Positions 5,712-59,866 of a DNA stretch of 64,000 bases are shown piece by piece. The number at the start of each line of letters is the position of its first letter. Position 1 is the first letter of the stretch. Under the pieces are notes generated by a model. The model did no database searches. It was not told the DNA's origin and saw only the letters and a program-made list of their open reading frames with translations. The position numbers were made by a program, and so were the translations under genes. The DNA lies in assembly GCF_024529975.1 (NCBI RefSeq), contig NZ_AP024897.1, positions 2,356,001-2,420,000 on the forward strand. Direction: 5' to 3'. This DNA comes from Vibrio quintilis. Lineage in GTDB: Bacteria > Pseudomonadota > Gammaproteobacteria > Enterobacterales > Vibrionaceae.

Positions 5712-5758
5712 TATACCCAAACACCCTGAAGATGCATGATTCAGGTTGACTGGGTATA
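5712..5758. repeat. Dispersed palindromic intergenic repeat, copy 1
   Basis: Ends tatacccaa and ttgactgggtata are inverted repeats around caccctgaagatgcatgattcag. The same sequence family recurs at 12291-12557, 12703-12749, 13802, 19382-19419, 42714-42843 and 59647-59686. It sits between the DUF4123 gene (leftward) and the DUF2202 gene (rightward), the only recognisable feature of this 385-bp gap. Confidence 0.8.
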
Positions 5759-12290: not shown

Positions 12291-12557
12291 TATCCCCAAA
12301 TGACCTCAAGATGCAGGATTCAGCGCTTTGTCAACAGGTTCAGTTCAAGGAAAATAACCGAAGAAATGATGACGCCTTTCGAGGTTGTTTGACGCAGAAA
12401 TGAACCTGTTGATGCGCTCCCGAAGGGCGGGATTGATTGGCACCTGTCCTGCGTGACTGATTTTCAACGCAGAATGACTCTGTTTACAAATCAGTGCCTT
12501 GCTCAGAAACCAATTCATTCTCGCTGAACATGAATATTGAGGTCACCTGGGGGATAT
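12291..12557. repeat. Long member of the dispersed palindromic repeat family
   Basis: The left end (tatccccaaatgacctcaag then atgcaggattca) and right end (tgaatattgaggtcacctgg then gggata) are inverted copies of the repeat seen at 12703-12749, here separated by about 200 bp of internal sequence with no open frame. The internal part contains tcaacaggttca and its inverse aacctgttga (about 12331 and 12405). It looks like a small non-coding element with terminal inverted repeats. Confidence 0.6.
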
Positions 12558-12702: not shown

Positions 12703-12749
12703 TATACCCAAACAGCCTGAATCCTGCATCTTCAGGTTGCCTGGGTATA
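12703..12749. repeat. Dispersed palindromic intergenic repeat
   Basis: tatacccaaacagcctga and tcaggttgcctgggtata form inverted arms around atcctgcatct. It is a compact family member upstream of the secreted protein gene at 12871. Confidence 0.8.
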
Positions 12750-13801: not shown

Positions 13802-13841
13802 TATACCCAAACAACCTGAAGATGCAGGGTTCAGTGAGCTG
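13802..13841. repeat. Dispersed repeat, one-armed copy
   Basis: tatacccaaacaacctgaag followed by atgcagggttcagtgag matches the left arm of the family. A degenerate right end may lie near 13877-13883 (gggtaca). Confidence 0.6.
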
Positions 13842-13929
13842 AAAGGCATATTTCTGCGTCAAGAGAATTTGAAAGGTGGGTACATTTTAAGAACGTCTGT
13901 CATCTATTGATCCGGCCCTCATGAATTTG

Positions 13930-19289: not shown

Positions 19290-19381
19290 CTCGTACCTCT
19301 TTTTATTGATTCACTCACCAACTGAGCAGACATCACGCTCATCCCCCTCACACAAGGACAAGGGCAATCACTCTTGTTATT

Positions 19382-19419
19382 TATACCCAACAACCTGAAG
19401 ATGCAGATTGTTGGGTATA
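19382..19419. repeat. Dispersed palindromic intergenic repeat, short copy
   Basis: tatacccaacaacctgaaga and gattgttgggtata form a compact inverted repeat of the family, upstream of the pectate lyase gene. The rest of the 475-bp gap to 19765 holds the regulatory sites listed separately. Confidence 0.8.
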
Positions 19420-42620: not shown

Positions 42621-42713
42621 AAAGAATACAAAAACCTGAATGTGACATACCATGCCACTCCGGATGGAACCTGTTCATCCCCGATTAAACACGGATGCTT
42701 CTGATGAGGAATC

Positions 42714-42843
42714 TACCCCGGCAACCTGAAGATGCAGCTTTCAGTGAGATTTGAAAAGCAGAGACATTCCTGCATTCCCTTTCCTTGAACTGTACCTTTC
42801 GGCTACACGCTGAATCATGCATCTTCAGGTTGCCTGGGTATAT
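42714..42843. repeat. Long dispersed repeat with inverted ends (130 bp)
   Basis: The left end (taccccggcaacctgaagat then gcag) and right end (gaatcatgcatcttcaggtt then gcctgggta) are inverted copies of the repeat family, around about 75 bp of internal sequence without an open frame. Confidence 0.75.
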
Positions 42844-43461
42844 ATTCATTCATCGTAATAATAATTAATTAAAACCTAATATTTATATTTTTTCGTTTTA
42901 TTTTCATAAAAATTCAAATTGATTTATTGCATAACAAACCAATCGATTAAAATATATCTTATAACCTGCGAAATTTATCAGGAAAAATTGAAATCATTAC
43001 AATAATATGTAATTTTTCCTGTTCAAATTCATATTTAAACGAACTATACATATTGAATAAATATATATAAAAAATAGAAGTATCTTTAAATAAACCAGTC
43101 AATTAGCGTTTAAAAAAACTGTCATATTCATGTTGAATTTTCAAATAAAAGGACTAGTATGCATTCCTACTATTCATCTAACACATCAATAGCTTAGACA
43201 ACAATCACACAAAACATCAGATGTATCAGTATAAATTAAAACTAATAAAACCATGAATATAATAAAAACAACAATATCATTTACATATTTTTCTGAAAAA
43301 AACATTACCTTTAAAATGTCAGTCTCAGTCTGTTAAAAAGAACTGAATAAATAAAACCCTTTCAATGAAACTATTAAGCTCAGGAAAAGTTGGAATAAAG
43401 ATCAATATTTTTAACTATAAAGGCAATTTATTTCATCCCAACTTGAAAATTAAAACGCACA
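42844..43461. promoter_or_regulatory. Very AT-rich control region of the aminolipid gene cluster
   Basis: About 620 bp of roughly 75-80% A+T, unlike the coding DNA on both sides. Such DNA is a typical target of H-NS-type silencing and marks transferred clusters. No divergent gene is present. It contains a 12-codon mini-frame (43159-43197) and precedes a terminator-like hairpin. Confidence 0.5.
43159..43197 (+). CDS. Possible 12-residue leader peptide (MHSYYSSNTSIA)
   Basis: An ATG with AAAGGA 5 nt upstream opens a short frame ending at TAG 43195-43197. Four of the twelve residues are serine and two are tyrosine. It lies in the untranslated region about 265 bp before a terminator-like hairpin. 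It could be a leader peptide, but the distance to the hairpin is large for classical attenuation, so it may be chance. Confidence 0.25.
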   Translation: MHSYYSSNTSIA

Positions 43462-43491
43462 CATTCTGCTATTGATAAGCAGGATGTTTTT
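43462..43491 (+). terminator. Terminator-like hairpin (attenuator) just upstream of the cluster
   Basis: cattctgct and agcaggatg form a 9-bp stem with one G-U pair and a 7-nt loop, followed by TTTTT at 43487-43491. It ends 18 bp before the first start codon. Since no gene lies directly upstream, it more likely attenuates transcription into the cluster than ends a preceding gene. Confidence 0.5.
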
Positions 43492-43509: not shown

Positions 43510-46185
43510 ATGGCTAGTTACTTAAATATAGAAAGACAAAAATTACTGGAGCTTATCAGCTTCGATAAAAAGATTACCAGGGCGAAAGGGCTTTACCTGT
43601 TTACAGACACCGGGGATAAATATCTGGATTTTATATCTCAGTTCGGTGCCGTACCTTTTGGACATAATCCGGACTTTCTCTGGCAGGTACTGACTGCACA
43701 GCAGGCTGCCGATCCCGGAGTCATGATCCAGCCTTTCTTTTCAGAAGGTGCGCAACAACTCTCACGGGCACTGGTTGAGGCAGCCCCCGGTGACATGAAG
43801 TATGTGACTTTTAGCTGCACCGGCGCAGAAGCTGTTGAAAGTGCGATAAAAATGGCGAAAGCCAAAACCGGCCGGGACATCATTGTTTCAGCCACAAACA
43901 GTTTTCACGGCAAAACGATGGGCGCAGTTCTGGCGACCGGAAATGAGCATTATCGTCTGCCTTTTTATCCGCCATCAGAAAGCTTTCTGCATGTCCCGTT
44001 TAATGATGCTCAGGCATTAGAAGATATACTCAGCACCAGACCGGCTGCTGCATTTATTGTTGAGCCGGTACAGGGAGAAGGCGGCATGGTGACACCAGCG
44101 CCCGGTTACCTGAAAACCTGCGAACAATTGTGTAAAAAATACGGTACATTGCTGATTGTTGACGAAGTGCAGACCGGCCTTGGCCGGACCGGCAAACTTT
44201 TTGCCTGCGAACACGATGACGTAGAACCGGATATACTGCTGATCGCCAAAACCCTGAGTGGCGGCCTGATTCCCATCAGTGCCTGTATTGCCGGTAAAAA
44301 AGCCTGGACTACTGAATTCGGTCAGCTTCACACCTCCACATTTGCCAATAATCACCTGGCCACCACAATTGGCTGTGCAGTGATGAAAAAGCTGACGGAA
44401 GAGCCGGAAATCATCGCCGGTGTTGCCCGTGTGGGTGCTTATCTTCAGGCCCGCCTCCGGGAGCTGGTGGACAGATTTCCGGTCGCTTTCAAAACCTGTG
44501 ATGGCATGGGACTGATGCAGGGCCTGACACTGCAACCCTGGCATGATGAAGAATCTTATCTGTGCCCGACGGTTTCCGGTCAGGGTATCATCGTGCCGCT
44601 GGTCTGTGCATACCTGCTCAACCGCCACAATATTTGTACCCTGCCGACGATGAACTCGCACAATGTGTTGCGTCTTCAGCCCTGCTATCTGGCTACAGAG
44701 GCAGAAATCGATCAGTTGATTCATGCGCTGGAAAAGGCCGGTGAACTGATCACTCAGGGGAAATTCTCAGCGTTGATCCGGGCAGCAGCCGGCATCGGCG
44801 AAGAACGTCCGGGGGTTCCGGACCGTCCGTATAAAAATCCGCCAATTGTACCTCAGGGAGAAAAACTGGGAACTTTCTGTTTCTTTGTTCATCCGGTTAC
44901 CGACATGCATACCATTGACTGTATGCCCGGTGGTCAGCAGGCCTACACAGCAGATGAAATTGAAAAAATTCAGTACTGGCTGGGAAAAGCAAAAGCTTTC
45001 TACGGCGGAGCCTCCCCGGCCTATTACATGCCATGTATCCCCTCAAAGAATGGTGGCTATGTTGACGGCTGGCTGATCAGCAGCCTGCTCACACCCAAAG
45101 ACATGATGCGTTTGCCGAAAGAGAAAAAAGAGCAACTCATCCACTCCTATGTGGGGATCGCACAGGAAAACGGTGCCGATATGATTGGTCTGGGCGCATT
45201 TACTTCTGTGATTACCCGCAGCGGAACAACCGTGGCAGACTGCGGCACACCCGTTACAACCGGTAATGCCTTTACCGCGTTAACCAGCACTGACAGTATC
45301 CGCACAATCTGTCGGGCCCGATCAGAAAAGATGTCACTGAAAACCCTGGGTATCGTCGGTGTATCCGGCTCCGTCGGCCGGTTGTGTTTACTCGATATCG
45401 GTGCGGAGTTCCGGCAACTGTACCTGATTGGCAACCCGCGCAATAAAGACAATGTGGACAAACAGGAAGTTGTGGCCGGTGAATTCCTGTACAAACTCTT
45501 CTCCGGTGTGCTGAGTGAATCCATGACACCATTGTGGAAAACACTGACAGATGCCGGTGCCGAAGCTGTGATTCAGGCGCATGTGAACCAGCTGCCGGAT
45601 GAAGACTACCCGGCGGAAACCTACCGGGCAATGTTCCGGGCAGTCAAACAACAATATCTTGAGACCTATGGGCGAACCGAAGGCTTCCCGCTGTTGCTCA
45701 GTAACGATATTGAACATGCCCTGCCAGTCTGTGATGTCATCGTTACTGCCACCAGCAACGGCGAATCCTTTATCCGCCCGGATGTACTTTCACCCGGAGC
45801 CATAGTTTGTGATGTGGCACGCCCTTCCGACCTGCTGCAGGAAGTGAAGCAAAACCGGGATGATATTACTGCCTACGACGGCGGACTGGTCCGTCTGCCG
45901 GCGAATTTACGCTTTGGCGGCCCGAATATCGCTGAACTGGATACTGGTGTCACCCTCGCCTGTCTGGCAGAAACCGTCATTCTGACCATGTCTCAGGCCA
46001 GAAAAAATTACAGCATCGGTGGTATTTCTTCGATTGAAGAAGCCAGAGAAGTGTTTCAGCTGGCATTAAAACACGGATTCTGCACCCACCTGAGTGAACG
46101 GGATATTCATGGCCCGGCGGCAGATAAGTCTCAGACATCCACGACACCAAAACACACCGCTGCACAAGTGGCATACACCGGCTAA
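43510..46185 (+). CDS. Fused class III aminotransferase and acyl-ACP reductase (TamH-like)
   Basis: An 891-residue fusion. Residues about 1-430 are a class III PLP aminotransferase: CTGAEAVESAIKMAKAKTGR, FHGKTMGAV, VDEVQTGLGRTG (217-228) and PLP lysine K247 in AKTLSGGLIP. Residues about 455-870 match the cyanobacterial acyl-ACP reductase (AAR): GLGAFTSV (560-567), VTTGNAFTA, NADPH loop GVSGSVG (617-623) and C818 in ACLAETV, at the place of the catalytic cysteine in AAR's ACFAEA. It should reduce an acyl thioester to an aldehyde and transaminate it to a long-chain amine, as TamH does in tambjamine synthesis. First gene of a seven-gene operon. Confidence 0.88.
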   Translation: MASYLNIERQKLLELISFDKKITRAKGLYLFTDTGDKYLDFISQFGAVPFGHNPDFLWQVLTAQQAADPGVMIQPFFSEGAQQLSRALVEAAPGDMKYVTFSCTGAEAVESAIKMAKAKTGRDIIVSATNSFHGKTMGAVLATGNEHYRLPFYPPSESFLHVPFNDAQALEDILSTRPAAAFIVEPVQGEGGMVTPAPGYLKTCEQLCKKYGTLLIVDEVQTGLGRTGKLFACEHDDVEPDILLIAKTLSGGLIPISACIAGKKAWTTEFGQLHTSTFANNHLATTIGCAVMKKLTEEPEIIAGVARVGAYLQARLRELVDRFPVAFKTCDGMGLMQGLTLQPWHDEESYLCPTVSGQGIIVPLVCAYLLNRHNICTLPTMNSHNVLRLQPCYLATEAEIDQLIHALEKAGELITQGKFSALIRAAAGIGEERPGVPDRPYKNPPIVPQGEKLGTFCFFVHPVTDMHTIDCMPGGQQAYTADEIEKIQYWLGKAKAFYGGASPAYYMPCIPSKNGGYVDGWLISSLLTPKDMMRLPKEKKEQLIHSYVGIAQENGADMIGLGAFTSVITRSGTTVADCGTPVTTGNAFTALTSTDSIRTICRARSEKMSLKTLGIVGVSGSVGRLCLLDIGAEFRQLYLIGNPRNKDNVDKQEVVAGEFLYKLFSGVLSESMTPLWKTLTDAGAEAVIQAHVNQLPDEDYPAETYRAMFRAVKQQYLETYGRTEGFPLLLSNDIEHALPVCDVIVTATSNGESFIRPDVLSPGAIVCDVARPSDLLQEVKQNRDDITAYDGGLVRLPANLRFGGPNIAELDTGVTLACLAETVILTMSQARKNYSIGGISSIEEAREVFQLALKHGFCTHLSERDIHGPAADKSQTSTTPKHTAAQVAYTG

Positions 46186-46200
46186 ACGAGGAAACCAGCT

Positions 46201-48981
46201 ATGTCTCATGCAATTACTGATTTTACGATGGTCGTCGGCCAAACCAGTGAAATCCCCGGAGAAACCGAAAACTACGCCGGACTGCTACGCCGGATCCTTG
46301 GCGGTAAAGGCGCTTCCCTGTGGGAATTGTCTAACAAAATGAAGATGCCGGTCCCGGCTTTTTGCTGTATCACCGCCTGCGCATTTACCGAAACACTACG
46401 CTATAACCAGCTTGATTCACTGGTTCAGTGGCTGATGCACCCAGACCAGCCACTGCCTGCCAGCGAAGCCCGGATCCGTGACCTGATTATGGCCTGTCGC
46501 ATCCCGAAAGGTATCGCGGCGGACCTGACTACCTTTACCGGACGATATCCGGAAGAAAGATTTGCCGTCCGAAGCAGCGGAACGGTTGAAGATGGTGCCG
46601 AAACCTCGTTTGCCGGATTGTTTGAATCCGTGCTCAACGTCCAGAAAACCGAAGATATTCTTCAGGCTGTAAAAACCTGCTGGTGCTCTCTGTTCAATGA
46701 ACGGGTTCAAACTTATATGACCCGGCAACATACCGCCGTGCCACTGGGCATGGCCGTGGTGATTCAGCAATTAATCCCGGCAGAAAAAAGTGGTGTGATG
46801 TTTACAGTTGATCCGGTGCATGGCGCAGATACAGAAATGCTGATCGAAGCCACCTTTGGTCTGGGGGAAGCGCTGGTTTCCGGTGCCGTCACACCGGACC
46901 AGTATCGCTATGACTGGTATCAGGAACAGGAGTCTGACCGGACCATTGCAGAAAAAGAACATCAGTGTGTCCGGATCAACGAGGCGCCCTTTGTAAGAAT
47001 GGAGCCGCTTCCGGCCGCTATTGCCAGTCATGCAGTTTTAACCACGACGGAAGTCCGTGAGCTCGCTGACCTGGGTCTGCAGATTCAGATGCAAAGTGGC
47101 TTCCCGGTTGATATTGAGTGGGCCTGTACCGGTAATCAGTTTTATATACTGCAAAGCCGCCCCATCACCCAGTTCGGCTATACCTCGATCAACGGAGAAT
47201 GGACCTCGGCCGACTACCGGGACGGCGGTGTCTCTTCCACCGTCTGCACGCCTTATATGGCTTCGCTGTATAAGTATGCCCTTGACGGCACAATGGGTGC
47301 CTACCTCGAACGTCTGAAACTCTCACCAGCCCGCGGCAGTGTCTGGCAAAAGAGCTTCTTCGGCCGTCCGTACTGGAATCTGAGTGAAGTCAAAAAATGT
47401 CTGGCCAAGATTCCGGGATTTAACGAACGTGTGTTTGATCAGGGACTGGGGATTTCTCCCCGTTATCAGGGTGATGGCATTGTCAGCAAAACCAATCTGA
47501 AAACCTTACTGACCGGTATCCGGGCGCTGCTCATCATCCGGGCCAACGTGAAACGGAAGTTAAAAACCACGCCGTCATTTTCTCTGGGTCAGCACCGGCG
47601 GCTTCAGGAGCTGGCAGCGATGAACTTTTCAACCCTGCCGGATGACGAACTGTTTCAGTTTTATCAGTCCTTTATCTGCAAAGAGTTCTTTGTCAATGAG
47701 TCGACCTACTTCGACCTGATCTATGACAACACCAACCTCAACGGCCTGTTTAAAGATGAGGTTGAGAAAACCCGCTTTGACATGAGTCAGTTTCCGCTGC
47801 TGATCAGTGGTCTGTCCGGTGTGTCTCACATGGCGCCGATGGAGAGACTGTGGAAAATGCGGGATCTCATCCATGCCGATCAGGATTGCAGCTATTACTG
47901 GCTGAACAGCAGCAGTGAACAGATTGCGACCGATCTGCAGCACGGAGAAACCCATTATCATCTCAATTCATTACGGGTTTATCTGCGGGAATACGGCCAT
48001 CATTCCCAGCGGGAGCTGGATATGCTGGTGCCAAGATATGCAGAAGTGCCGGAGATGGTAATTGAACAGTTACAGGATGTACTGCGTCAGGGCAGTGAAA
48101 AAGATCCGCGCGTTCGAAATAACGAGCAACAAATCAGAATGAACACCGTGAAAAGAGAATTGCTGCACGCCACGCCACTGCTGAAACGGCGCAAAATGAG
48201 TCAAAGGCTCGAACAGGTGCGGGAGTTCCTCTGGTGGCGGGAAGAGTTGCGTGATTTGTCGATTCGCTATTATCTCTATGTCCGGAAAATCACGCTCGCA
48301 GTGGAAGCGCGGCTGTTAAAAAACGGCATTCTGGCGCAGAAAGATGATGCATTCTTCCTTGATATGCCTGATTTGGTGGCGGTGGTCCGCGGTGATATTC
48401 CACCTGATGAAGCCCGCCATCTGGTACGTAAAAACCGGGCTTATTACCTGAGCTTTGCGCACTACCAGATCGCAGATGAAGTCGGAGAACGCTACGGCAT
48501 GTTCGGTGGCAGTCAGCTGAGTACCCCACAGTCAGAAGTTCAGCCCGCTGACGGCCAGACCGTGACCGGCGTTTCCGGCAGCCCCGGTATGATTACCGGC
48601 GTCGCACGGGTCATCTCAGATATTCATGATGCAGACCGGCTGCAACCGGATGACATTCTGGTCACCCGCTGTACCGATCCCGGCTGGACACCGAAATTCT
48701 CGATGCTGAAAGGCGTCGTGACGGAAACCGGCGGAATTTTGTCTCACGCTGCTGTGATTTGCCGGGAATACGGCATTCCGGCAGTGCTGGCGGTCAAACA
48801 TGCAACCCGCATCATTCAGGATGGCGACATCATCACGATTGACGGCAGCCGCGGGCATGTTATTCCGCCGGTCCGGGAAGCACAGCTGCATCCTGAAGAT
48901 CTGGCTGACTCTTCAGGGCATGGTTTGTCTGCTGATCAGGCACCGGTTACAGCCAGTGCCACAAAAGAAGCCACCGTATAG
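46201..48981 (+). CDS. PEP-synthase/PigC-like ATP-dependent enzyme 1
   Basis: A 926-residue protein with the two-part layout of PEP synthase relatives: an N-terminal ATP-grasp (PPDK_N) domain (about 25-330: LGGKGASLWELSN, FAVRSSGTVEDGAETSFAG, GVMFTVDPV, FGLGEALVSGAVTPD, DIEWA, LQSRPI), a long central region (about 340-780) unlike PEP synthase, and a C-terminal swivelling phosphohistidine domain (VTRCTDPGWTP, TETGGILSHAAVICREYGIP, H849). The C-terminal PEP/pyruvate barrel is missing, so it belongs with rifampicin phosphotransferase and PigC/TamQ. It may activate a substrate by phosphorylation for condensation with the amine; substrate unknown. Starts 15 bp after the fusion gene. Confidence 0.82.
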   Translation: MSHAITDFTMVVGQTSEIPGETENYAGLLRRILGGKGASLWELSNKMKMPVPAFCCITACAFTETLRYNQLDSLVQWLMHPDQPLPASEARIRDLIMACRIPKGIAADLTTFTGRYPEERFAVRSSGTVEDGAETSFAGLFESVLNVQKTEDILQAVKTCWCSLFNERVQTYMTRQHTAVPLGMAVVIQQLIPAEKSGVMFTVDPVHGADTEMLIEATFGLGEALVSGAVTPDQYRYDWYQEQESDRTIAEKEHQCVRINEAPFVRMEPLPAAIASHAVLTTTEVRELADLGLQIQMQSGFPVDIEWACTGNQFYILQSRPITQFGYTSINGEWTSADYRDGGVSSTVCTPYMASLYKYALDGTMGAYLERLKLSPARGSVWQKSFFGRPYWNLSEVKKCLAKIPGFNERVFDQGLGISPRYQGDGIVSKTNLKTLLTGIRALLIIRANVKRKLKTTPSFSLGQHRRLQELAAMNFSTLPDDELFQFYQSFICKEFFVNESTYFDLIYDNTNLNGLFKDEVEKTRFDMSQFPLLISGLSGVSHMAPMERLWKMRDLIHADQDCSYYWLNSSSEQIATDLQHGETHYHLNSLRVYLREYGHHSQRELDMLVPRYAEVPEMVIEQLQDVLRQGSEKDPRVRNNEQQIRMNTVKRELLHATPLLKRRKMSQRLEQVREFLWWREELRDLSIRYYLYVRKITLAVEARLLKNGILAQKDDAFFLDMPDLVAVVRGDIPPDEARHLVRKNRAYYLSFAHYQIADEVGERYGMFGGSQLSTPQSEVQPADGQTVTGVSGSPGMITGVARVISDIHDADRLQPDDILVTRCTDPGWTPKFSMLKGVVTETGGILSHAAVICREYGIPAVLAVKHATRIIQDGDIITIDGSRGHVIPPVREAQLHPEDLADSSGHGLSADQAPVTASATKEATV

Positions 48982-48993
48982 GAACCTTATTTT

Positions 48994-49635
48994 ATGAATA
49001 TTATCGGAATTTATAACGCCCCCGCCTGCGTGACGATGCTGGGTCTGATTGCTTCCGTATTCGCCTGTACGCTGGCGATTAACGGCAACCATGAGTTTGC
49101 ACTCACTGCGTTAATCTGGGCAGGCATTTTTGACCTGTTTGACGGTATGGTTGCCCGTCGCACGACAAGAACCGAAACTGAATCCCGCTTCGGGGTTCAG
49201 ATCGATTCGATTGTCGACGTGATCAGCTTCGGCATCACACCCGCGATCATTCTCACCACCATGCACCACAATATCTGGAGCCTGATTATCGCAGTGTTCT
49301 ACGTGTGTGCGGCGGCTCAGCGACTGGCATATTTTAACGTACTTCAGGAATCGGTGGTGAAGGAAAACAGTACAACCAAATCCTATCTTGGGCTGCCCGT
49401 CACCTTTGCAGCGCTGATATTTGGTGTCGGTCTGTTCCCGGTGGTGACGCTGTCGCAAACCGCCGCCACCCACTACGCCAATGGTTTAATGTTGCTGACC
49501 GGCATTCTGTTCATTACACCGTTCACAATGAAAAAGCCGGGTGGCATTGTGTATCTGATGATGCCGGTGCTGGCGCTTGCTGCAACGGTATTCTGGCTCT
49601 GGCAGGGCCTGACCGGAGGTTTCCATGTGGTCTGA
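48994..49635 (+). CDS. CDP-alcohol phosphatidyltransferase, PssA-type
   Basis: A 213-residue membrane enzyme. The CDP-alcohol motif is complete: D47-LF-D50-G, AR, then G-VQI-D71-SIV-D75-VISFG. The DSxxDxxSFG continuation is that of phosphatidylserine synthase (PssA, subclass II). It should exchange CMP of a CDP-activated lipid for serine. The lipid need not be diacylglycerol, because the cluster has its own CDP-lipid synthase. ATG 48994 has AGGAA upstream. Its 3' end overlaps the next gene by 11 bp. Confidence 0.85.
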   Translation: MNIIGIYNAPACVTMLGLIASVFACTLAINGNHEFALTALIWAGIFDLFDGMVARRTTRTETESRFGVQIDSIVDVISFGITPAIILTTMHHNIWSLIIAVFYVCAAAQRLAYFNVLQESVVKENSTTKSYLGLPVTFAALIFGVGLFPVVTLSQTAATHYANGLMLLTGILFITPFTMKKPGGIVYLMMPVLALAATVFWLWQGLTGGFHVV

Positions 49636-50173
49636 GATTATTTTATCGGCACTGATTTTAATGCTGCCGCTGATCATTTCCGGTTCGTTTCACATGATGG
49701 TGGTCAAAAGAAACTGGTTTGCTGCCTGGGCAATTCCGCTCAATGAGCAAGCCTTCGGTCAGAACAAAACCTGGCGTGGCATTCTGATTATGCCGCTGGC
49801 GACGATTCCCGGTACGGTGTTGATCACCCTGCTTCACAGCTGGTTTCAGCCGGTGATGCTGGTTGATCTGACGTCAACCGATCCGGTGCTGCTGGGCATT
49901 CTGCTCGGCATTGGCTATGTCATTCCGGAGCTGCCGAACTCGTGGGTAAAACGCCGGCTGAGGATTCCTCCGGGCCAGCAGGCAGCGAAAAATGCTTTCT
50001 GGTTCACCTTGATCGATCAAACAGATTCAGCCATTGGCTGTGCCATCGTGTACGCCCTGATGCTTGATGTGCCGGTGATTGTTTTCCTCTGGATTATATT
50101 GCTCGGGCCACTGGTCCATCTGGTTGTCAACCTCACCCTGTACAGCGTGGGGCTGAGAAAACAACCTTTTTAA
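49625..50173 (+). CDS. CarS-like CTP:lipid cytidylyltransferase
   Basis: A 182-residue membrane protein with the CDP-archaeol synthase (CarS, DUF46) motifs: an N-terminal helix pair, FGQNKTWRG, the ELPNSWVKRRLRIPPG loop, and DQTDSAIG, in the family order. CarS activates an archaeal ether-lipid phosphate with CTP. In bacteria most cells use CdsA instead, so a CarS homologue next to a PssA-type enzyme suggests an unusual lipid phosphate as substrate. It begins within the preceding gene with GGAGG 4 nt upstream of the ATG. Confidence 0.82.
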   Translation: MWSEIILSALILMLPLIISGSFHMMVVKRNWFAAWAIPLNEQAFGQNKTWRGILIMPLATIPGTVLITLLHSWFQPVMLVDLTSTDPVLLGILLGIGYVIPELPNSWVKRRLRIPPGQQAAKNAFWFTLIDQTDSAIGCAIVYALMLDVPVIVFLWIILLGPLVHLVVNLTLYSVGLRKQPF

Positions 50174-50189
50174 TGAGAGACGATGATCT

Positions 50190-51125
50190 ATGCCAGTCGC
50201 AGAAGAACACAAAACACCATTTCAGCAGGATGCGGTTCCTGCGATACAGTACATTAACCGGGAAACCGGCCTGCAAGAAACAGAACGGGTTTATGGTGAA
50301 CAGGCACTGATGTTTCTGTATCACAGCAAACCGGGGGGCTTGCTGCGTCGACATCTGTTCCGCAAACCCTGGTTCAGTCAACTTAATGCGGTGAAAAAGC
50401 GCCTGTGGCTCAGCCGCAGGCATATCACCGGATTTGCTGACACTTTCGGTGTCGCGGTTGATGAAGCGGAAAAACCCATCGGGCAGTATCGCTCTCTGGA
50501 TGAGTTTTTCTGCCGGCGGCTGACGCCACAGGCCCGGCCGTTGAATCCGGATCCGCAGGCACTGCTTTCACCGGCGGATGGCCGGGTTCTGAGTTACCCG
50601 ATCATGCCCGGTGCCATCATGCAACTGAAGGGGCAACAGGTCAGCATTGAAGAACTGCTGCAATCCCCGGAAACCGCAGCAAACCTCAATGGCGGTACTG
50701 CGCTGGTGATCCGGCTGGCACCCAAAGATTATCATCGCTTTCACTTTCCGTGCGATGGCACGCTGCTCAGCCAGAAAACAGTTTCAGGTCCGCTGGAATC
50801 GGTCCATCCGATTGCGTTGCGTGGCGGTGCCCGCAGTTTCCTGAATAAACGTATGATCACCACACTGGAATCTCCCCGGTTCGGCGTGATCGTCATGGCT
50901 GAGATTGGCGCAATGACCATAGGCACTATCGAACAAACATTCAGCGGCGGGCGGTTTTCCCGTGGTCAGGAAAAAGGCTGTTTTCATTTCGGCGGTTCAA
51001 CCGTCGTGCTGCTGTGGGGCCCGGATGGCCCGGCAGTCGATGCAGATATCCTGACAAACTCCGCCAGTGATACGGAAACACTGGTGAAATACGGCACACA
51101 AATCGCTGCCCTGAATACCTTCTGA
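50190..51125 (+). CDS. psd: Phosphatidylserine decarboxylase (pyruvoyl enzyme)
   Basis: A 311-residue Psd-family protein. The catalytic residues are D130 in SPADGR and H182 in DYHRFH, with the self-cleavage motif GGST (268-271), cleaved between G269 and S270 to give the pyruvoyl group; LGST is the more usual form. The N-terminal extension includes HITGFADTFGV and the LDEFFCRRL segment of the family. In this operon it should convert the phosphoserine head group made by the PssA-type enzyme to phosphoethanolamine. Confidence 0.9.
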   Translation: MPVAEEHKTPFQQDAVPAIQYINRETGLQETERVYGEQALMFLYHSKPGGLLRRHLFRKPWFSQLNAVKKRLWLSRRHITGFADTFGVAVDEAEKPIGQYRSLDEFFCRRLTPQARPLNPDPQALLSPADGRVLSYPIMPGAIMQLKGQQVSIEELLQSPETAANLNGGTALVIRLAPKDYHRFHFPCDGTLLSQKTVSGPLESVHPIALRGGARSFLNKRMITTLESPRFGVIVMAEIGAMTIGTIEQTFSGGRFSRGQEKGCFHFGGSTVVLLWGPDGPAVDADILTNSASDTETLVKYGTQIAALNTF

Positions 51126-51137
51126 CAGATTCAAATT

Positions 51138-53837
51138 ATGATAAAACAAGACTTTATTATTCATACTCAAAATTATGCGGCTGAGCTGCAAACACAGCTT
51201 GGCGGTAAAGCAGGCAATCTGTTCCGCCTTCAGGCTGCCGGTCTGACGGTTCCTGACTTTATCTGTGTCTCCGCAGAAGCATACCGCCAGTCAACGGCGG
51301 CCATCCGCCCGCAGATCAGGCAATATCTGGATCAATGTCAGTTTGACTCGCTCGATTCGCTGACCGCAACATCCAAAGCGATTCAGGCACTGATTCTTTC
51401 CTGTGAGCTACCGGCTGAGCTGTGTGAAGCGCTGTCTGAAAATATGAAACGCTTTGACCTCACAGAACAGTTTTCTGTCCGCTCTTCTGCAATCAGTGAA
51501 GATGGCGCCCGTAACTCTTTTGCCGGTCAATTGGGCACCTGGCTGAATGTCAGTTTTCCGGATATTCAGGATAAAATCAAAACCTGCTGGGCCAGTGCAT
51601 TTGAACCCGGTGTGCTGACTTATGTGCACCAGCGCACCGATATCCGCCATGAAGACAATGCGGTCGCGGTGGTCATTCAACGGATGATCCACGCAGTCAG
51701 TTCCGGCGTTATGTTTCAGGCAGATCCGCAGAACGGACTGGAAAAACTGGCGATTGCAGCCGGTTACGGACTGGGAGAAGGCATTGTCGGCGACAAGGTT
51801 GAAACCGATTTATATCTGTTTGATAAACCAACCCGGGAATGGCAGCTGCATATCGAAGAGAAACAGCGCCAGTTGCGCAGCCATCCGAAAGGCGGTACAC
51901 AGGAAACTGCGGTCAAACCCGGTTTGCAGCAACAAGCCGTACTTTCTGAACAGCAGCGGGAGGCACTCCTGCAGGCGTCAGAGCGGATTGCAGCCCTCTA
52001 TACCACCTATCAGGATATCGAATGGTCTTTCGACCGGAACGGCCAGCTGTTTATCTTACAGTCCCGCCCGATTACCACCATTCCGGTTGGCTACGAGCGG
52101 GTATTTGACAACTGTAATATTGCCGAAAGCTATCCGGGCATCATTCTGCCGATGACTTTTTCAATCGTCCGTAATGATTATTATCACTGCATGAAAGGCA
52201 CGATGCAGATGTTCGGCATCCCAGCCAGCGTGATAGAAGACCGGGAAGAAGTGTTGCAGCATCTGGTTGGCTATATTCATGGCCGCACTTACTACAACAT
52301 CAGTAACTGGTATCGGATTTTTCTGACGATTCCTTATTTTAAACAAAGGTTTATTGATTTCTTTGAGCAGATGGTCGGCACCGATGGCTCTTTTACAGAC
52401 AGTTTGAATGATGTGCCTATGCGTCGTTCAGAACGACTGAAGTCAGCGGTGATGTTTCCAATAAAACTTGGTTACTATGCTCTGCGCCACCAACGGATGA
52501 TCAGGGAGTATTTTAAGATTACTGACGATATCCGCCGGGATTATGAAGCCATTGATACCGACAATGCCGGTTCTGATGAACTCATCGCCGCCTTACATGA
52601 CCTGGTGATCCGGTTTACCGAATCGATGGCTTTTCCGCTGCTCAACGATTTTTATGCGATGTCTTTTATGGCGCTGACCCGCGAGCAATTTGCCAAAGCC
52701 GGGATTGCCGATGCTGATAACCTGATTAATCAGTTACTCGGTAATCAGTCTGTTGAAAGCACCAAGCCGGTTGATTCCCTGAATACGATGATTGCACAGG
52801 TTCGCCGTGACGAACAATTGCGGGCCTGTTTACAGCGGCTGAAACAAATCCCGCATCTGAACCAGCCACAGGCACTGTCTCACGCCCTGACTCAGGAAGG
52901 ATACACCGCCTTTGCTGCTGCACTGAAAAATCATATTGATCTCTACGGCTACCGCTCGCCCAAAGAACTGATTATGGAAGCCAGCACCTTCCATGAGAAT
53001 CCATTCCATTTACTGCATATTTTGCTGGAATCAGCGGCGCAGGAAGCCACCGACACCGCACCGGCATCAGATGCCGGACTGCAACTGGAAGCGGCGCTCA
53101 GAAAGAGCAGGAAAAAACGCTGGCTGAAGTGGTTATTGAAAAAAACGCGTCAGGCAATCGCCAACCGCGAAGCAACCCGCCTCGATCGGGGGCTGCATTT
53201 CTCATTTTTCAGAACCTTACTGCATCATATCGGTCATCGTCTGGTGAATGAAAACATACTGACGCAGGCAGAAGATATTTTTTATCTGACCCTGTCGGAA
53301 CTGGATGATTTTCGTCAGGGATGCGGCATCACCTCTGATTTCAGACCACTGGTGGAACTGCGCAAAAAAGAGGTAAAAAACTGGGAGCGTAAGACGCAGG
53401 ATAACAAAATTTTCACCCGCGGCAGTGTTTATGCGAATACAATCCCTGACATCCGGCTGAATTTGCAGGACAATCCGGATATTCTGAAAGGCGTTGGCTG
53501 TGCCGGTGATTTGGTCAGTGCGCCGGCCCGGATTATCACCGATCCGTCTCAGGGTTCTGATATCAAAGGGAAAATCATGGTCTCAGAAACCACAGATCCG
53601 GGCTGGGTGTTTTTAATGACGATGTCATCAGGCCTGATTTCTGAACGGGGCAGCCTGCTTTCTCATACCGCGATTATCGGACGTGAGCTGGGCATTCCGA
53701 CGGTCGTTGGCGTCAAGAACGCAACCCGTTATATTCAGGACGGCAACCCGATCAGTCTGAACGGAAAAACCGGTGAAATTCATCTGAATGACACACCAAA
53801 AGAAGTCGCCACAGAGGCAGAAAGGCTGACCGCCTGA
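51138..53837 (+). CDS. PEP-synthase/PigC-like ATP-dependent enzyme 2
   Basis: An 899-residue protein of the same architecture as the 46201 gene but clearly diverged: LGGKAGNLFRLQAAG, FSVRSSAISEDGARNSFAGQ (near 113), GVMFQADP, YGLGEGIVGD, DIEWSF, LQSRPI, a distinct central region rich in Arg/Lys, and the phosphohistidine domain TTDPGWVFLM, ISERGSLLSHTAIIGRELGIP with H843. Two such enzymes in one cluster suggest two separate ATP-dependent activation or phosphorylation steps. One may make the lipid phosphate that the CarS-like enzyme needs. Substrate unknown. Confidence 0.82.
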   Translation: MIKQDFIIHTQNYAAELQTQLGGKAGNLFRLQAAGLTVPDFICVSAEAYRQSTAAIRPQIRQYLDQCQFDSLDSLTATSKAIQALILSCELPAELCEALSENMKRFDLTEQFSVRSSAISEDGARNSFAGQLGTWLNVSFPDIQDKIKTCWASAFEPGVLTYVHQRTDIRHEDNAVAVVIQRMIHAVSSGVMFQADPQNGLEKLAIAAGYGLGEGIVGDKVETDLYLFDKPTREWQLHIEEKQRQLRSHPKGGTQETAVKPGLQQQAVLSEQQREALLQASERIAALYTTYQDIEWSFDRNGQLFILQSRPITTIPVGYERVFDNCNIAESYPGIILPMTFSIVRNDYYHCMKGTMQMFGIPASVIEDREEVLQHLVGYIHGRTYYNISNWYRIFLTIPYFKQRFIDFFEQMVGTDGSFTDSLNDVPMRRSERLKSAVMFPIKLGYYALRHQRMIREYFKITDDIRRDYEAIDTDNAGSDELIAALHDLVIRFTESMAFPLLNDFYAMSFMALTREQFAKAGIADADNLINQLLGNQSVESTKPVDSLNTMIAQVRRDEQLRACLQRLKQIPHLNQPQALSHALTQEGYTAFAAALKNHIDLYGYRSPKELIMEASTFHENPFHLLHILLESAAQEATDTAPASDAGLQLEAALRKSRKKRWLKWLLKKTRQAIANREATRLDRGLHFSFFRTLLHHIGHRLVNENILTQAEDIFYLTLSELDDFRQGCGITSDFRPLVELRKKEVKNWERKTQDNKIFTRGSVYANTIPDIRLNLQDNPDILKGVGCAGDLVSAPARIITDPSQGSDIKGKIMVSETTDPGWVFLMTMSSGLISERGSLLSHTAIIGRELGIPTVVGVKNATRYIQDGNPISLNGKTGEIHLNDTPKEVATEAERLTA

Positions 53838-53849
53838 ATTTGTTCCTCA

Positions 53850-53872
53850 TCTCCCCCTGTAACAGGGGGAGA
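53850..53872. other. Perfect intra-operon hairpin
   Basis: tctccccctg and cagggggaga are 10-bp arms with a taa loop, between the second PEP-synthase-like gene and the UbiA gene. No T-run follows, so it is more likely an mRNA-stabilising or processing hairpin that separates expression of the last gene. Confidence 0.5.
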
Positions 53873-53901
53873 CAGAACGGCATAACACGGAGAACAATCT
53901 G

Positions 53902-54768
53902 TTGAATAAACAGTTAAAAATCATTGGCCTGTATAGCCGGGAGCGCAGTCCCGCCGGATTGACCCTGCTGATTGCAGCCCTGCTGCTGACGTCAGTGATG
54001 AAAGAACTGCCACACCCGGCCATCGCACTGATCGCCATACTGATTGCAGCTCTGATGCTGTTTCTCATCCGCCTGTCAGATGATCTCTGCGATGTGGACA
54101 TTGATCGGATCGCACACCCGGAGCGCCTGCTGTGCCGCGATCAATTCAGCGTCAAAATCCTGCAGCGGTTTCGCTGGCTGGCTTCAGGTCTGTTAATTCT
54201 CATCAGTGTTTTGATTGCTGTAAACCTTGTCGCTATGCTGATTTTTTTATCTGCTGTCCTGCTGATTTGCGGCTTATTTTTTTTCCTGAAACCCCGGTTG
54301 CCAATACTGATTCATACAGCACTGCTGAATGCGATGTTGGGTATTTTCCCCTGCTATGCCGGTGTGTTAATCAGCGGTGGCATCCAGCCGGAACACATGC
54401 TGATGGCATTGTTTTTCTGGTTGGGTAGTTTTGCCCATGACCTGTCTCATTCTCTGCTCGATACCAGGCAAACTCCGCCCGATCAGCTCAAACCCCTTAA
54501 CCGGTTCAATCAGAGAATACTGGCGGTGGGTTCGCTGGTTCTGTATCTGGCCTGTGCAGGTACCGGGGTTCTGCTGTTCCGGCAGCAGGCGGTGGGAGAT
54601 GCTTTTCTGCTGGTACTCGGCATCTGTTCACTGACCATTCTCTGGCTTGAACTGAAGCTGATCAGACACCCCTCCCGGACAACCGCCAGACCCTTTTATA
54701 TCTGGGGCTACCTGTTTTTTCTGCTACCGGTACTGGCTGAGGTGGTTTGCCGTGGCATTGCGCCCTGA
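53902..54768 (+). CDS. UbiA-family prenyltransferase
   Basis: A 288-residue membrane protein with about eight helices. The first Asp-rich site is LIRLSDDLCDVDIDRIAHPER with D60, D61, D64, D66 and D68, as in UbiA-family enzymes; the second site (FAHDLSHSLLDTR) is weaker but has spaced Asp. Such enzymes move a prenyl or related diphosphate onto an acceptor, including glycerophosphate lipids. It is the last gene of the cluster, after a hairpin. TTG 53902 (GGAG 11 nt upstream) is the best start. Confidence 0.8.
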   Translation: MNKQLKIIGLYSRERSPAGLTLLIAALLLTSVMKELPHPAIALIAILIAALMLFLIRLSDDLCDVDIDRIAHPERLLCRDQFSVKILQRFRWLASGLLILISVLIAVNLVAMLIFLSAVLLICGLFFFLKPRLPILIHTALLNAMLGIFPCYAGVLISGGIQPEHMLMALFFWLGSFAHDLSHSLLDTRQTPPDQLKPLNRFNQRILAVGSLVLYLACAGTGVLLFRQQAVGDAFLLVLGICSLTILWLELKLIRHPSRTTARPFYIWGYLFFLLPVLAEVVCRGIAP

Positions 54769-59339: not shown

Positions 59340-59866
59340 AAGCTGTACTTATTTTTTATATAACCATTCATCGTTCGTCTTTGCTGCTGATAATACGCAT
59401 ACTTGCGGCATAAAGTCACGAAGATGGAATAAAAATGATGATAAAAATGGCACTTCACTGGGATATTACCCTGCAATTTTCGCTGAAAAAGAGACAATTT
59501 TTATGGAGTACACGCTCAAAATCAGCAAAGCCGTCAACCCTGCCGGAATGCTTTTCAGTCCATCTCAGAAAGGATACCGGCTTACCCACAGACAAAGATG
59601 ATCAGGCTGATTACCGAAAGTATCTATAATTTTTCAAAATAAGTTATATACCCAAGCAACCTGCATCTTCAGGTTGTTTGGGTATAAGCTCAGCTTAAGT
59701 TATCCGGCAGAATATTGTCAGTCGTCCGGCAAACCCTGAGTAAACGAAGTACAACCGGTAACCGGCCACAACTGTTTTGTCAGACAAGGTTTTTTCTGAT
59801 TGCGAAACAGCACGAACTAATGCAGCATATCAATTAATTTTATATTTTACCTAAAGAGGCAAACAT
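59340..59866. other. Intergenic region with a palindromic repeat
   Basis: A 527-bp gap between the leftward LysR gene and the YbjQ operon. It includes a dispersed repeat at 59647-59686. Short open frames at 59435-59629 and 59503-59601 (starting MEYTLKISKAVNPAG, with a weak GAGAC upstream) have no recognised family and are not called. Confidence 0.4.
59647..59686. repeat. Dispersed palindromic intergenic repeat, compact copy
   Basis: tatacccaagcaacctg and caggttgtttgggtata are inverted arms around catctt, the most compact copy in the window. Confidence 0.85.

Follow-up and report, generated by a model that had tools for sequence, protein, structure and literature searches.

A patchily distributed seven-gene operon of Vibrio quintilis that may direct synthesis of a phospholipid-like molecule lacking a glycerol backbone

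Overview of the operon

The window analysed here is a 64,000-nucleotide stretch of the Vibrio quintilis genome (assembly GCF_024529975.1, contig NZ_AP024897.1, positions 2,356,001 to 2,420,000), and its positions 43510-54768 hold an operon of seven intact + strand open reading frames (ORFs). These encode, in order, an aminotransferase/acyl-ACP-reductase fusion (AT-AAR; ACP, acyl carrier protein), a PEP-synthase/rifampin-phosphotransferase-like enzyme (PEPS1; PEP, phosphoenolpyruvate), a PssA-type transferase, a CarS-like cytidylyltransferase, a Psd, a second enzyme of the PEPS1 kind (PEPS2) and a UbiA-fold enzyme (Table 1). On balance we lean towards the view that the operon is a dedicated route to a phospholipid-like molecule whose backbone is not glycerol. 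It is a real, conserved and modular lipid pathway, made up of enzymes of known kinds and apparently not described before. A preliminary description of this DNA knew of no system with the same combination, and we found none in the open-access literature, a search that leaves subscription journals mostly uncovered and is weak evidence of novelty; with the same coverage, no paper was found on the sister clusters with HMG-CoA-reductase-like fusions discussed below. PMC12419801, as far as consulted, names several of these families but describes other neighbourhoods.

The successive gaps between the seven genes are 15, 12, -11, 16, 12 and 64 bp, and the Pfam order of the products is Aminotran_3; PPDK_N with PEP-utilizers; CDP-OH_P_transf; CarS-like; PS_Dcarbxylase; PPDK_N with PEP-utilizers; and UbiA, all assignments lying above the gathering cut-offs. 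The gene order, single strand and short or overlapping junctions first reported for the operon, except before UbiA, are thereby confirmed. We infer that the UbiA gene, in spite of its TTG start and longer gap, shares a transcript with the other six.

Table 1. Genes of the operon, with positions in the window and Pfam evidence.
Gene	Product	Length (aa)	Position	Strand	Pfam evidence
1	AT-AAR fusion	891	43510..46185	+	PF00202, 272 bits
2	PEPS1	926	46201..48981	+	PF01326 + PF00391
3	PssA-type CDP-alcohol phosphatidyltransferase	213	48994..49635	+	PF01066, 62 bits
4	CarS-like CTP:lipid-phosphate cytidylyltransferase	182	49625..50173	+	PF01864, 44.7 bits (cut-off 22)
5	Psd (phosphatidylserine-decarboxylase family)	311	50190..51125	+	PF02666, 165.8 bits
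6	PEPS2, second PEP-synthase-like dikinase	899	51138..53837	+	PF01326 + PF00391
7	UbiA-fold membrane enzyme (TTG start)	288	53902..54768	+	PF01040, 50.1 bits

Distribution and exchange of modules

The grouping of the seven genes is not due to chance, because the gene set recurs in other genomes. The preliminary description had proposed looking for the same neighbourhood elsewhere, and all seven genes are present in the same order in a V. aerogenes-like genome of the same genus (L092), with protein identities of 71-92%. They are also all present in a Gynuella-like genome of another order (L111), where UbiA has moved to the front and identities are 48-69%, and AT-AAR, PEPS1 and CarS occur in a further locus, L089.

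A set of 18 CarS loci was compared (the window, L089, L090, L091, L092, L093, L096 and L111-L121), two of which could not be judged for the front end of the pathway (L091, a 5.2-kb contig, and L121, where the contig ends inside CarS). AT-AAR with PEPS1 is found in four (the window, L092, L111 and L089) and a fusion of an HMG-CoA reductase (HMGR)-like domain to an APH kinase in 12 (L090, L093, L096 and L112-L120); within the stretches read, no locus has both. Because the two front ends exchange among loci and never occur together, AT-AAR with PEPS1 probably does the job of the HMGR-like/APH fusion, that is, reduces an acyl thioester and adds the phosphate needed by CarS.

The back ends exchange as well. 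Psd is present in five of the 18 loci (the window, L092, L111, L096 and L121), a GNAT-like protein in nine (L089, L112, L113 and L115-L120) and an OleC-like AMP ligase in nine (L090 and L112-L119), and Psd never occurs together with the GNAT-like protein or the ligase. The 16 judgeable loci comprise AT-AAR with Psd (3), AT-AAR with the GNAT-like protein (1, L089), HMGR-like with Psd (1, L096), HMGR-like with GNAT and/or AMP ligase (10) and HMGR-like with inositol-phosphate synthase (1, L093). Structure prediction for the L112 protein (pLDDT 78), which matches the tandem GNAT 7q3a best, gave the GNAT-like assignment, and the L089 member shares just 20-22% identity with the remaining ones. In-frame references gave 121 bits for the L089 PssA and 323 bits for the L120 GNAT, and the L093 transferase, without a match in the locus comparison, was assigned from Pfam. 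The L120 contig has a single 399-aa aminotransferase, not a fusion, more than 10 kb away, and the L091 contig carries CarS and a protein whose opening residues look by eye like those of a radical-SAM enzyme.

CarS of the window type is rare. Counting the host itself, it was found in 4/369 genomes of the class, 3/379 of a second, overlapping draw from the class, 3/329 genomes of the family and 1/299 genomes of the phylum (the host only); it occurs in 1/40 genomes of the order of G239 and 11/390 in the order of Parendozoicomonas (taken as Pseudomonadales). A protein search returned 25 CarS relatives, and reaches only those that share exact words and have a similar length, so that fused forms are excluded. 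CarS had no match in 72,556 plasmid records, and a plasmid origin was rejected on that ground. The pathway is thus rare and patchy, as if it had been moved horizontally or often lost.

Such scatter across the family, the class and the order of Parendozoicomonas would also suit a secreted small molecule or surfactant, for instance an alkyl-phosphoethanolamine natural product, made with borrowed head-group enzymes and forming no membrane lipid. MMPL/RND-type exporters do adjoin three of the 12 HMGR-type clusters (L126:2263-4623 in L116/L126, L118:7316-9679 and L119:10229-12589), but MMPL pumps also move lipids, and their position suggests lipid export. No exporter gene was recognised within the window's operon from the ORF list and Pfam, and CarS, PssA and UbiA are enzymes that sit in the membrane and serve the lipids of the bilayer. 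We regard a secreted product as possible but rather unlikely.

The AT-AAR fusion

Gene 1 begins with a class III aminotransferase domain (aa 21-410), followed by an acyl-ACP/thioester reductase domain at about aa 496-860. The reductase half has no Pfam match but matches a solved cyanobacterial acyl-ACP reductase (6jzq, E 6.5e-9) and PigE (4ppm, E 9.5e-26). K247, which we take to be the pyridoxal phosphate (PLP) lysine, the GxxGxxG glycines G617/G620/G623 and C818 are invariant across 41 aligned AT-AAR sequences, and C818 lines up with the ACFAE motif of 6jzq and GCMAE of PigE. Gene 1 therefore has the features of a TamH/PigE-type fatty-amine fusion (fused domains, PLP lysine, GxxGxxG and catalytic Cys), while scoring below the NCBIfam PigE equivalog cut-off (481.9 vs 850 bits). 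PtTamH, a fusion of this type, was shown to aminate fatty aldehydes, with glutamate supplying the amino group, and has a reductase part similar to acyl-ACP reductases (PMC9594044).

The association with lipid genes does not look like a general trait of such fusions. When the seven window proteins were compared by tblastn (E 1e-4) with 80 loci from the broader family of fusions (L003-L082, taken from among the matches listed, some of them short, and with nearer relatives of the fusion lying outside the set), no relative of CarS, PssA, Psd or UbiA was found, and the sole PEPS match was a weak one in L011. CarS was not found in seven searched genomes of this set, in a search for which there was no dedicated positive control. 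A lipid link common to all AT-AAR fusions was rejected on the L003-L082 result, and the link looks confined to the window's clade.

HMG-CoA-reductase-like sister clusters

Eleven of the 12 HMGR-like/APH fusions were aligned (L120 was omitted). All 11 keep E189, D358-K359-K360, D433 and H523 in the HMGR-like domain and HxDxxxxN in the kinase domain. Compared by eye with 6hr7, all 11 have E or D at the Ser position and a residue other than Lys at the Lys position, both of which we assume to bind HMG, the Ser its carboxylate; the L112 fusion has a Lys three positions from the Lys site. A role as true mevalonate enzymes was rejected on the loss of these residues. Because the catalytic residues are kept and the HMG-binding residues lost, the reduction carried out by the HMGR-like domain is most likely that of a different acyl thioester, and the kinase domain would phosphorylate the resulting alcohol to supply CarS with a lipid phosphate. 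A search for the fusion gave 2190 matches among 7992 candidates scored; among the matches listed, 120/120 have the HMGR domain and all but P0218 and P0221 also the kinase domain.

Two of these clusters have additional features. L093:9411-18041, from the window's family, contains the HMGR-like/APH fusion, CarS, an archaetidylinositol-phosphate-synthase-like transferase, inositol-phosphate synthase, a DprE1-like oxidase, a DegT aminotransferase and a sulfotransferase, and looks like a pathway for an aminated, sulfated inositol lipid. At L090:10241-12778 an alpha/beta-hydrolase is fused to the OleC-like AMP ligase (OleBC-type), adjoining a formyltransferase-like gene.

The PEP-synthase-like enzymes

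PEPS1 and PEPS2 have the make-up of rifampin-phosphotransferase-like dikinases, with an ATP-binding domain and a C-terminal swivel domain whose catalytic His is present in 18/18 aligned PEPS proteins. Neither is a PEP synthase by domain content, as only PPDK_N and PEP-utilizers were detected at E 0.001 and a C-terminal PEP/pyruvate-binding domain was not found. The solved chains nearest PEPS1 are 5fbs, 5hv2 and 5hv1, and those nearest both enzymes are of the 5fbs/5hv1 type; we take these to be rifampin phosphotransferases, although the PDB labels them PEP synthase. Rifampin phosphotransferases phosphorylate a hydroxyl. Both operon enzymes fall below the rifampin phosphotransferase cut-off NF041857 (386.3 and 313.8 vs 999 bits). 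PEPS2 separates from PEPS1 with SH-aLRT 100 in the PEPS tree, which like the CarS tree is a quick tree with long branches.

The preliminary description had the fatty amine condensed by a TamQ-like enzyme. TamQ is the PigC-type ligase of tambjamine synthesis. On a reading of this kind the AT-AAR amine would be joined to a carbonyl compound by a PEPS enzyme, with the phosphate already carried or supplied by PEPS2, before CarS, PssA and Psd act. In tambjamine synthesis, fusions of the PtTamH type (PMC9594044) do pass their amine on to a ligase of this sort, and window PEPS1 fits the PigC model about as well as the phosphotransferase model (386.6 bits, against the 386.3 given above). The L111 PEPS1 is slightly nearer PigC (409.5 vs 396.4 bits), while that of L089 favours the phosphotransferase (350.7 vs 328.4). 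Profile scores thus do not tell whether PEPS1 is PigC-like or phosphotransferase-like, which together with the L111 preference counts against the pathway as we read it. The PigC and RedH cut-offs (1300 and 1350 bits) are, however, far from reached by window PEPS1, and in the 12 loci where a reductase-kinase fusion stands in for AT-AAR and PEPS1, no condensation is needed at that step. PEPS2 is an unlikely sole source of phosphate, since it is retained in 10 of the 12 HMGR loci, which have a kinase already. Because AT-AAR with PEPS1 takes the slot of the reductase-kinase fusion of 12/16 judgeable loci, the better reading of PEPS1 is a putative kinase that acts on what gene 1 makes, in preference to an enzyme that condenses as TamQ does. 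We therefore consider condensation unlikely. The amine-containing phospholipid with a non-standard backbone proposed in the preliminary description gains from the operon's own head-group path and from an AT-AAR fusion like that of PtTamH, but its TamQ-style step, as written, is not supported.

Phosphorylation by PEPS1 might also take place on nitrogen. L-glutamine kinase has a PEP-synthase-like fold. In Campylobacter capsule synthesis this kinase phosphorylates nitrogen directly with ATP (PMC6429109). If PEPS1 N-phosphorylated the fatty amine, CarS would make an N-linked CDP-lipid and PssA and Psd would finish a P-N (phosphoramidate) membrane lipid. This would be the nitrogen counterpart of the lipid that the HMGR/kinase sister clusters make with an O-phosphate. 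We hold this version to be doubtful.

The head-group enzymes

Genes 3 to 5 carry the marks of their families. The top NCBIfam models for gene 3 are of the serine type, archaetidylserine synthase (97.5 bits) and PssA (79.4 bits), both under their cut-offs (240 and 107 bits), and the CDP-alcohol motif spacer of the window-type transferases is 11 residues as counted by eye. Gene 4 is a member of the CarS superfamily by its PF01864 score and conserved blocks; NKT, ELPNSxxKR and DQxDS are invariant in 25 sequences and invariant or nearly so in 22 more diverse ones, and its score is under the archaeal CarS equivalog cut-off NF003114 (64.9 vs 148 bits). Gene 5 is a Psd, with PF02666, a score also above the TIGR00163 cut-off and a GST-type self-processing motif, which occurs as GGST in 5/5 cluster Psds.

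Elsewhere the host genome has two CDP-diacylglycerol-synthase-type (CdsA-type) genes and three other Psd-family genes, the best-scoring at C1:378663-379319. The other two lie on the second contig (C2:1186636-1187277 and C2:476790-477404, within open reading frames of 415 and 463 aa) and may belong to other unusual pathways. Because these CdsA-type and Psd genes exist, the evidence supports the operon CarS, PssA and Psd as a self-contained head-group path that ordinary phospholipids do not need; the preliminary description had likewise held that the usual diacylglycerol route would have no need of its own set. A substrate for CarS other than phosphatidic acid would explain why the operon has its own.

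Ordinary phosphatidylethanolamine synthesis was rejected as the operon's function on the same genes. It is also improbable that genes 3 to 5 are a redundant set for that lipid beside an unrelated amine pathway: a bacterial CDP-diacylglycerol synthase can replace CarS (PMC7852524), so that the reverse is conceivable, but the gene set stays intact in genomes belonging to two orders and is reshuffled in modules with PEPS2 and UbiA, and the host is a genome that already has copies of the ordinary type.

The UbiA-fold enzyme

By sequence, UbiA has no match in the PDB at E up to 1. Its predicted structure (pLDDT 85.8) has as best Foldseek matches 6m31 (E 9.7e-8) and 7bpu (E 7.2e-7), both digeranylgeranylglyceryl-phosphate (DGGGP) synthase, the next being at 2.7e-3, and D60, D64 and D68 of the first acidic motif are invariant in 8/8 aligned sequences. 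DGGGP synthase forms an ether, adding the second tail of archaeal lipids (PMC9385802), and from its model UbiA is a plausible second-tail transferase. Set against this are a degenerate third acidic motif and the VIA-align result, which ties DGGGP synthase with another UbiA homologue. The prenylated lipid suggested at first is compatible with the Foldseek match and is weakened by the third motif.

UbiA is found in 14/14 loci with PEPS2. Of the 16 loci with a front end, 14 have both, and the other two, L093 and L120, have neither in the roughly 55 kb and 30 kb of contig read; the L116 UbiA is visible only on the longer stretch L126. PEPS2 probably serves the UbiA tail-transfer step.

An archaeal-type ether-lipid route in a bacterium, with glycerol-1-phosphate and two prenyl ethers, would accommodate the CarS-like and archaetidylserine-synthase-like proteins and the UbiA fold, but is very improbable, as it leaves AT-AAR and the PEPS enzymes without a role and geranylgeranylglyceryl-phosphate (GGGP) synthase (PcrB family, PF01884) was not found in the host genome by a search whose control was positive in 7/14 known genomes. 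An archaeal ether lipid as the product was rejected on this negative.

A model of the pathway

In the glycerol-free pathway that we favour, AT-AAR would reduce acyl-ACP or acyl-CoA to the aldehyde and transaminate it to a long-chain amine, chemistry known from PtTamH, with the substrate presumed for the operon enzyme. PEPS1 would then phosphorylate the amine product on oxygen or nitrogen, using ATP and its phospho-histidine swivel domain, as the exchange with the kinase fusion suggests. UbiA, aided by PEPS2, may add a second, probably prenyl, tail in the manner of archaeal DGGGP synthase, judging by the fold match. Family membership and intact catalytic motifs point to the remaining steps, in which CarS would activate the lipid phosphate with CTP, the PssA-type enzyme would exchange CMP for serine and Psd would decarboxylate the product to a phosphoethanolamine lipid. 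The HMGR fold takes a 3-hydroxyacyl substrate, and by analogy we guess that the acyl substrate of the operon could be a 3-hydroxyacyl chain whose hydroxyl bears the second tail.

If true, the model would extend the bacterial phospholipids by a class that starts from a reduced acyl chain and uses no glycerol. It would also offer a lipid hypothesis for two orphan groups, the UbiA-associated PEP-synthase-like dikinases and the HMGR-like/APH fusions, and the exchange of front ends (AT-AAR with PEPS1, HMGR-like/kinase) and back ends (Psd, GNAT/AMP ligase, inositol) makes gene functions testable by comparison of strains.

Sequence features around the operon

The host genome is 5.85 Mb in three contigs, and the window lies on the 4.1-Mb contig. 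Scans gave 14 promoter matches against a shuffle mean of 14.5 and 10 terminator matches against 12.7, with no enrichment of either. A hairpin of 10 pairs followed by a T run lies at window positions 43461-43487 and ends 22 nt 5' of the gene 1 ATG; the V. aerogenes-like relative has a hairpin of different sequence at about the same place (by eye), and leader control by these hairpins is possible. Further upstream, at 42711-42843, is a 34-nt inverted repeat with the core GGCAACCTGAAGATGCA, with partial copies at six window sites (near 5712-5744, 12303-12353, 12717-12749, 13802-13854, 19379-19409 and 59658-59686). It is an element resembling a repetitive extragenic palindrome (REP) or miniature inverted-repeat transposable element (MITE).

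Comparison with known systems

The tail enzymes of tambjamine and prodiginine synthesis resemble those of the operon, PtTamH having the domain order of gene 1 (transaminase, then thioester reductase; PMC9594044) and PigC the architecture of PEPS1. The operon proteins nevertheless miss the PigE and PigC cut-offs, and the operon has no pyrrole genes. To our knowledge CarS, PssA, Psd and UbiA are foreign to tambjamine and prodiginine clusters. The start of Campylobacter capsule phosphoramidate synthesis shares ATP-dependent phosphorylation of nitrogen by L-glutamine kinase and, later, a cytidine diphosphoramidate (PMC6429109), but that pathway modifies a soluble sugar and involves no lipid. FCB-group bacteria also have UbiA/DGGGP-synthase-like genes in a lipid context; according to PMC7852524, they have GGGP and DGGGP synthases without CarS, whereas the V. 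quintilis genome has CarS and UbiA and no GGGP synthase that we could find.

The archaeal glycerophospholipid pathway has CarS, a serine transferase, a decarboxylase and the UbiA fold in the same logical order (PMC9385802). It differs in its GGGP synthase, not detected in the host, and from it the operon is set apart by a backbone that apparently comes from acyl-thioester reduction and by two extra dikinases. The HMGR-like/APH clusters share with the operon CarS and a CDP-alcohol transferase (12/12), PEPS2 and UbiA (10/12) and a slot for a reductase plus kinase, and differ in using an HMGR-like reduction in place of AT-AAR, in having mostly GNAT and/or AMP ligase in place of Psd and in a CarS that is often fused to the transferase.

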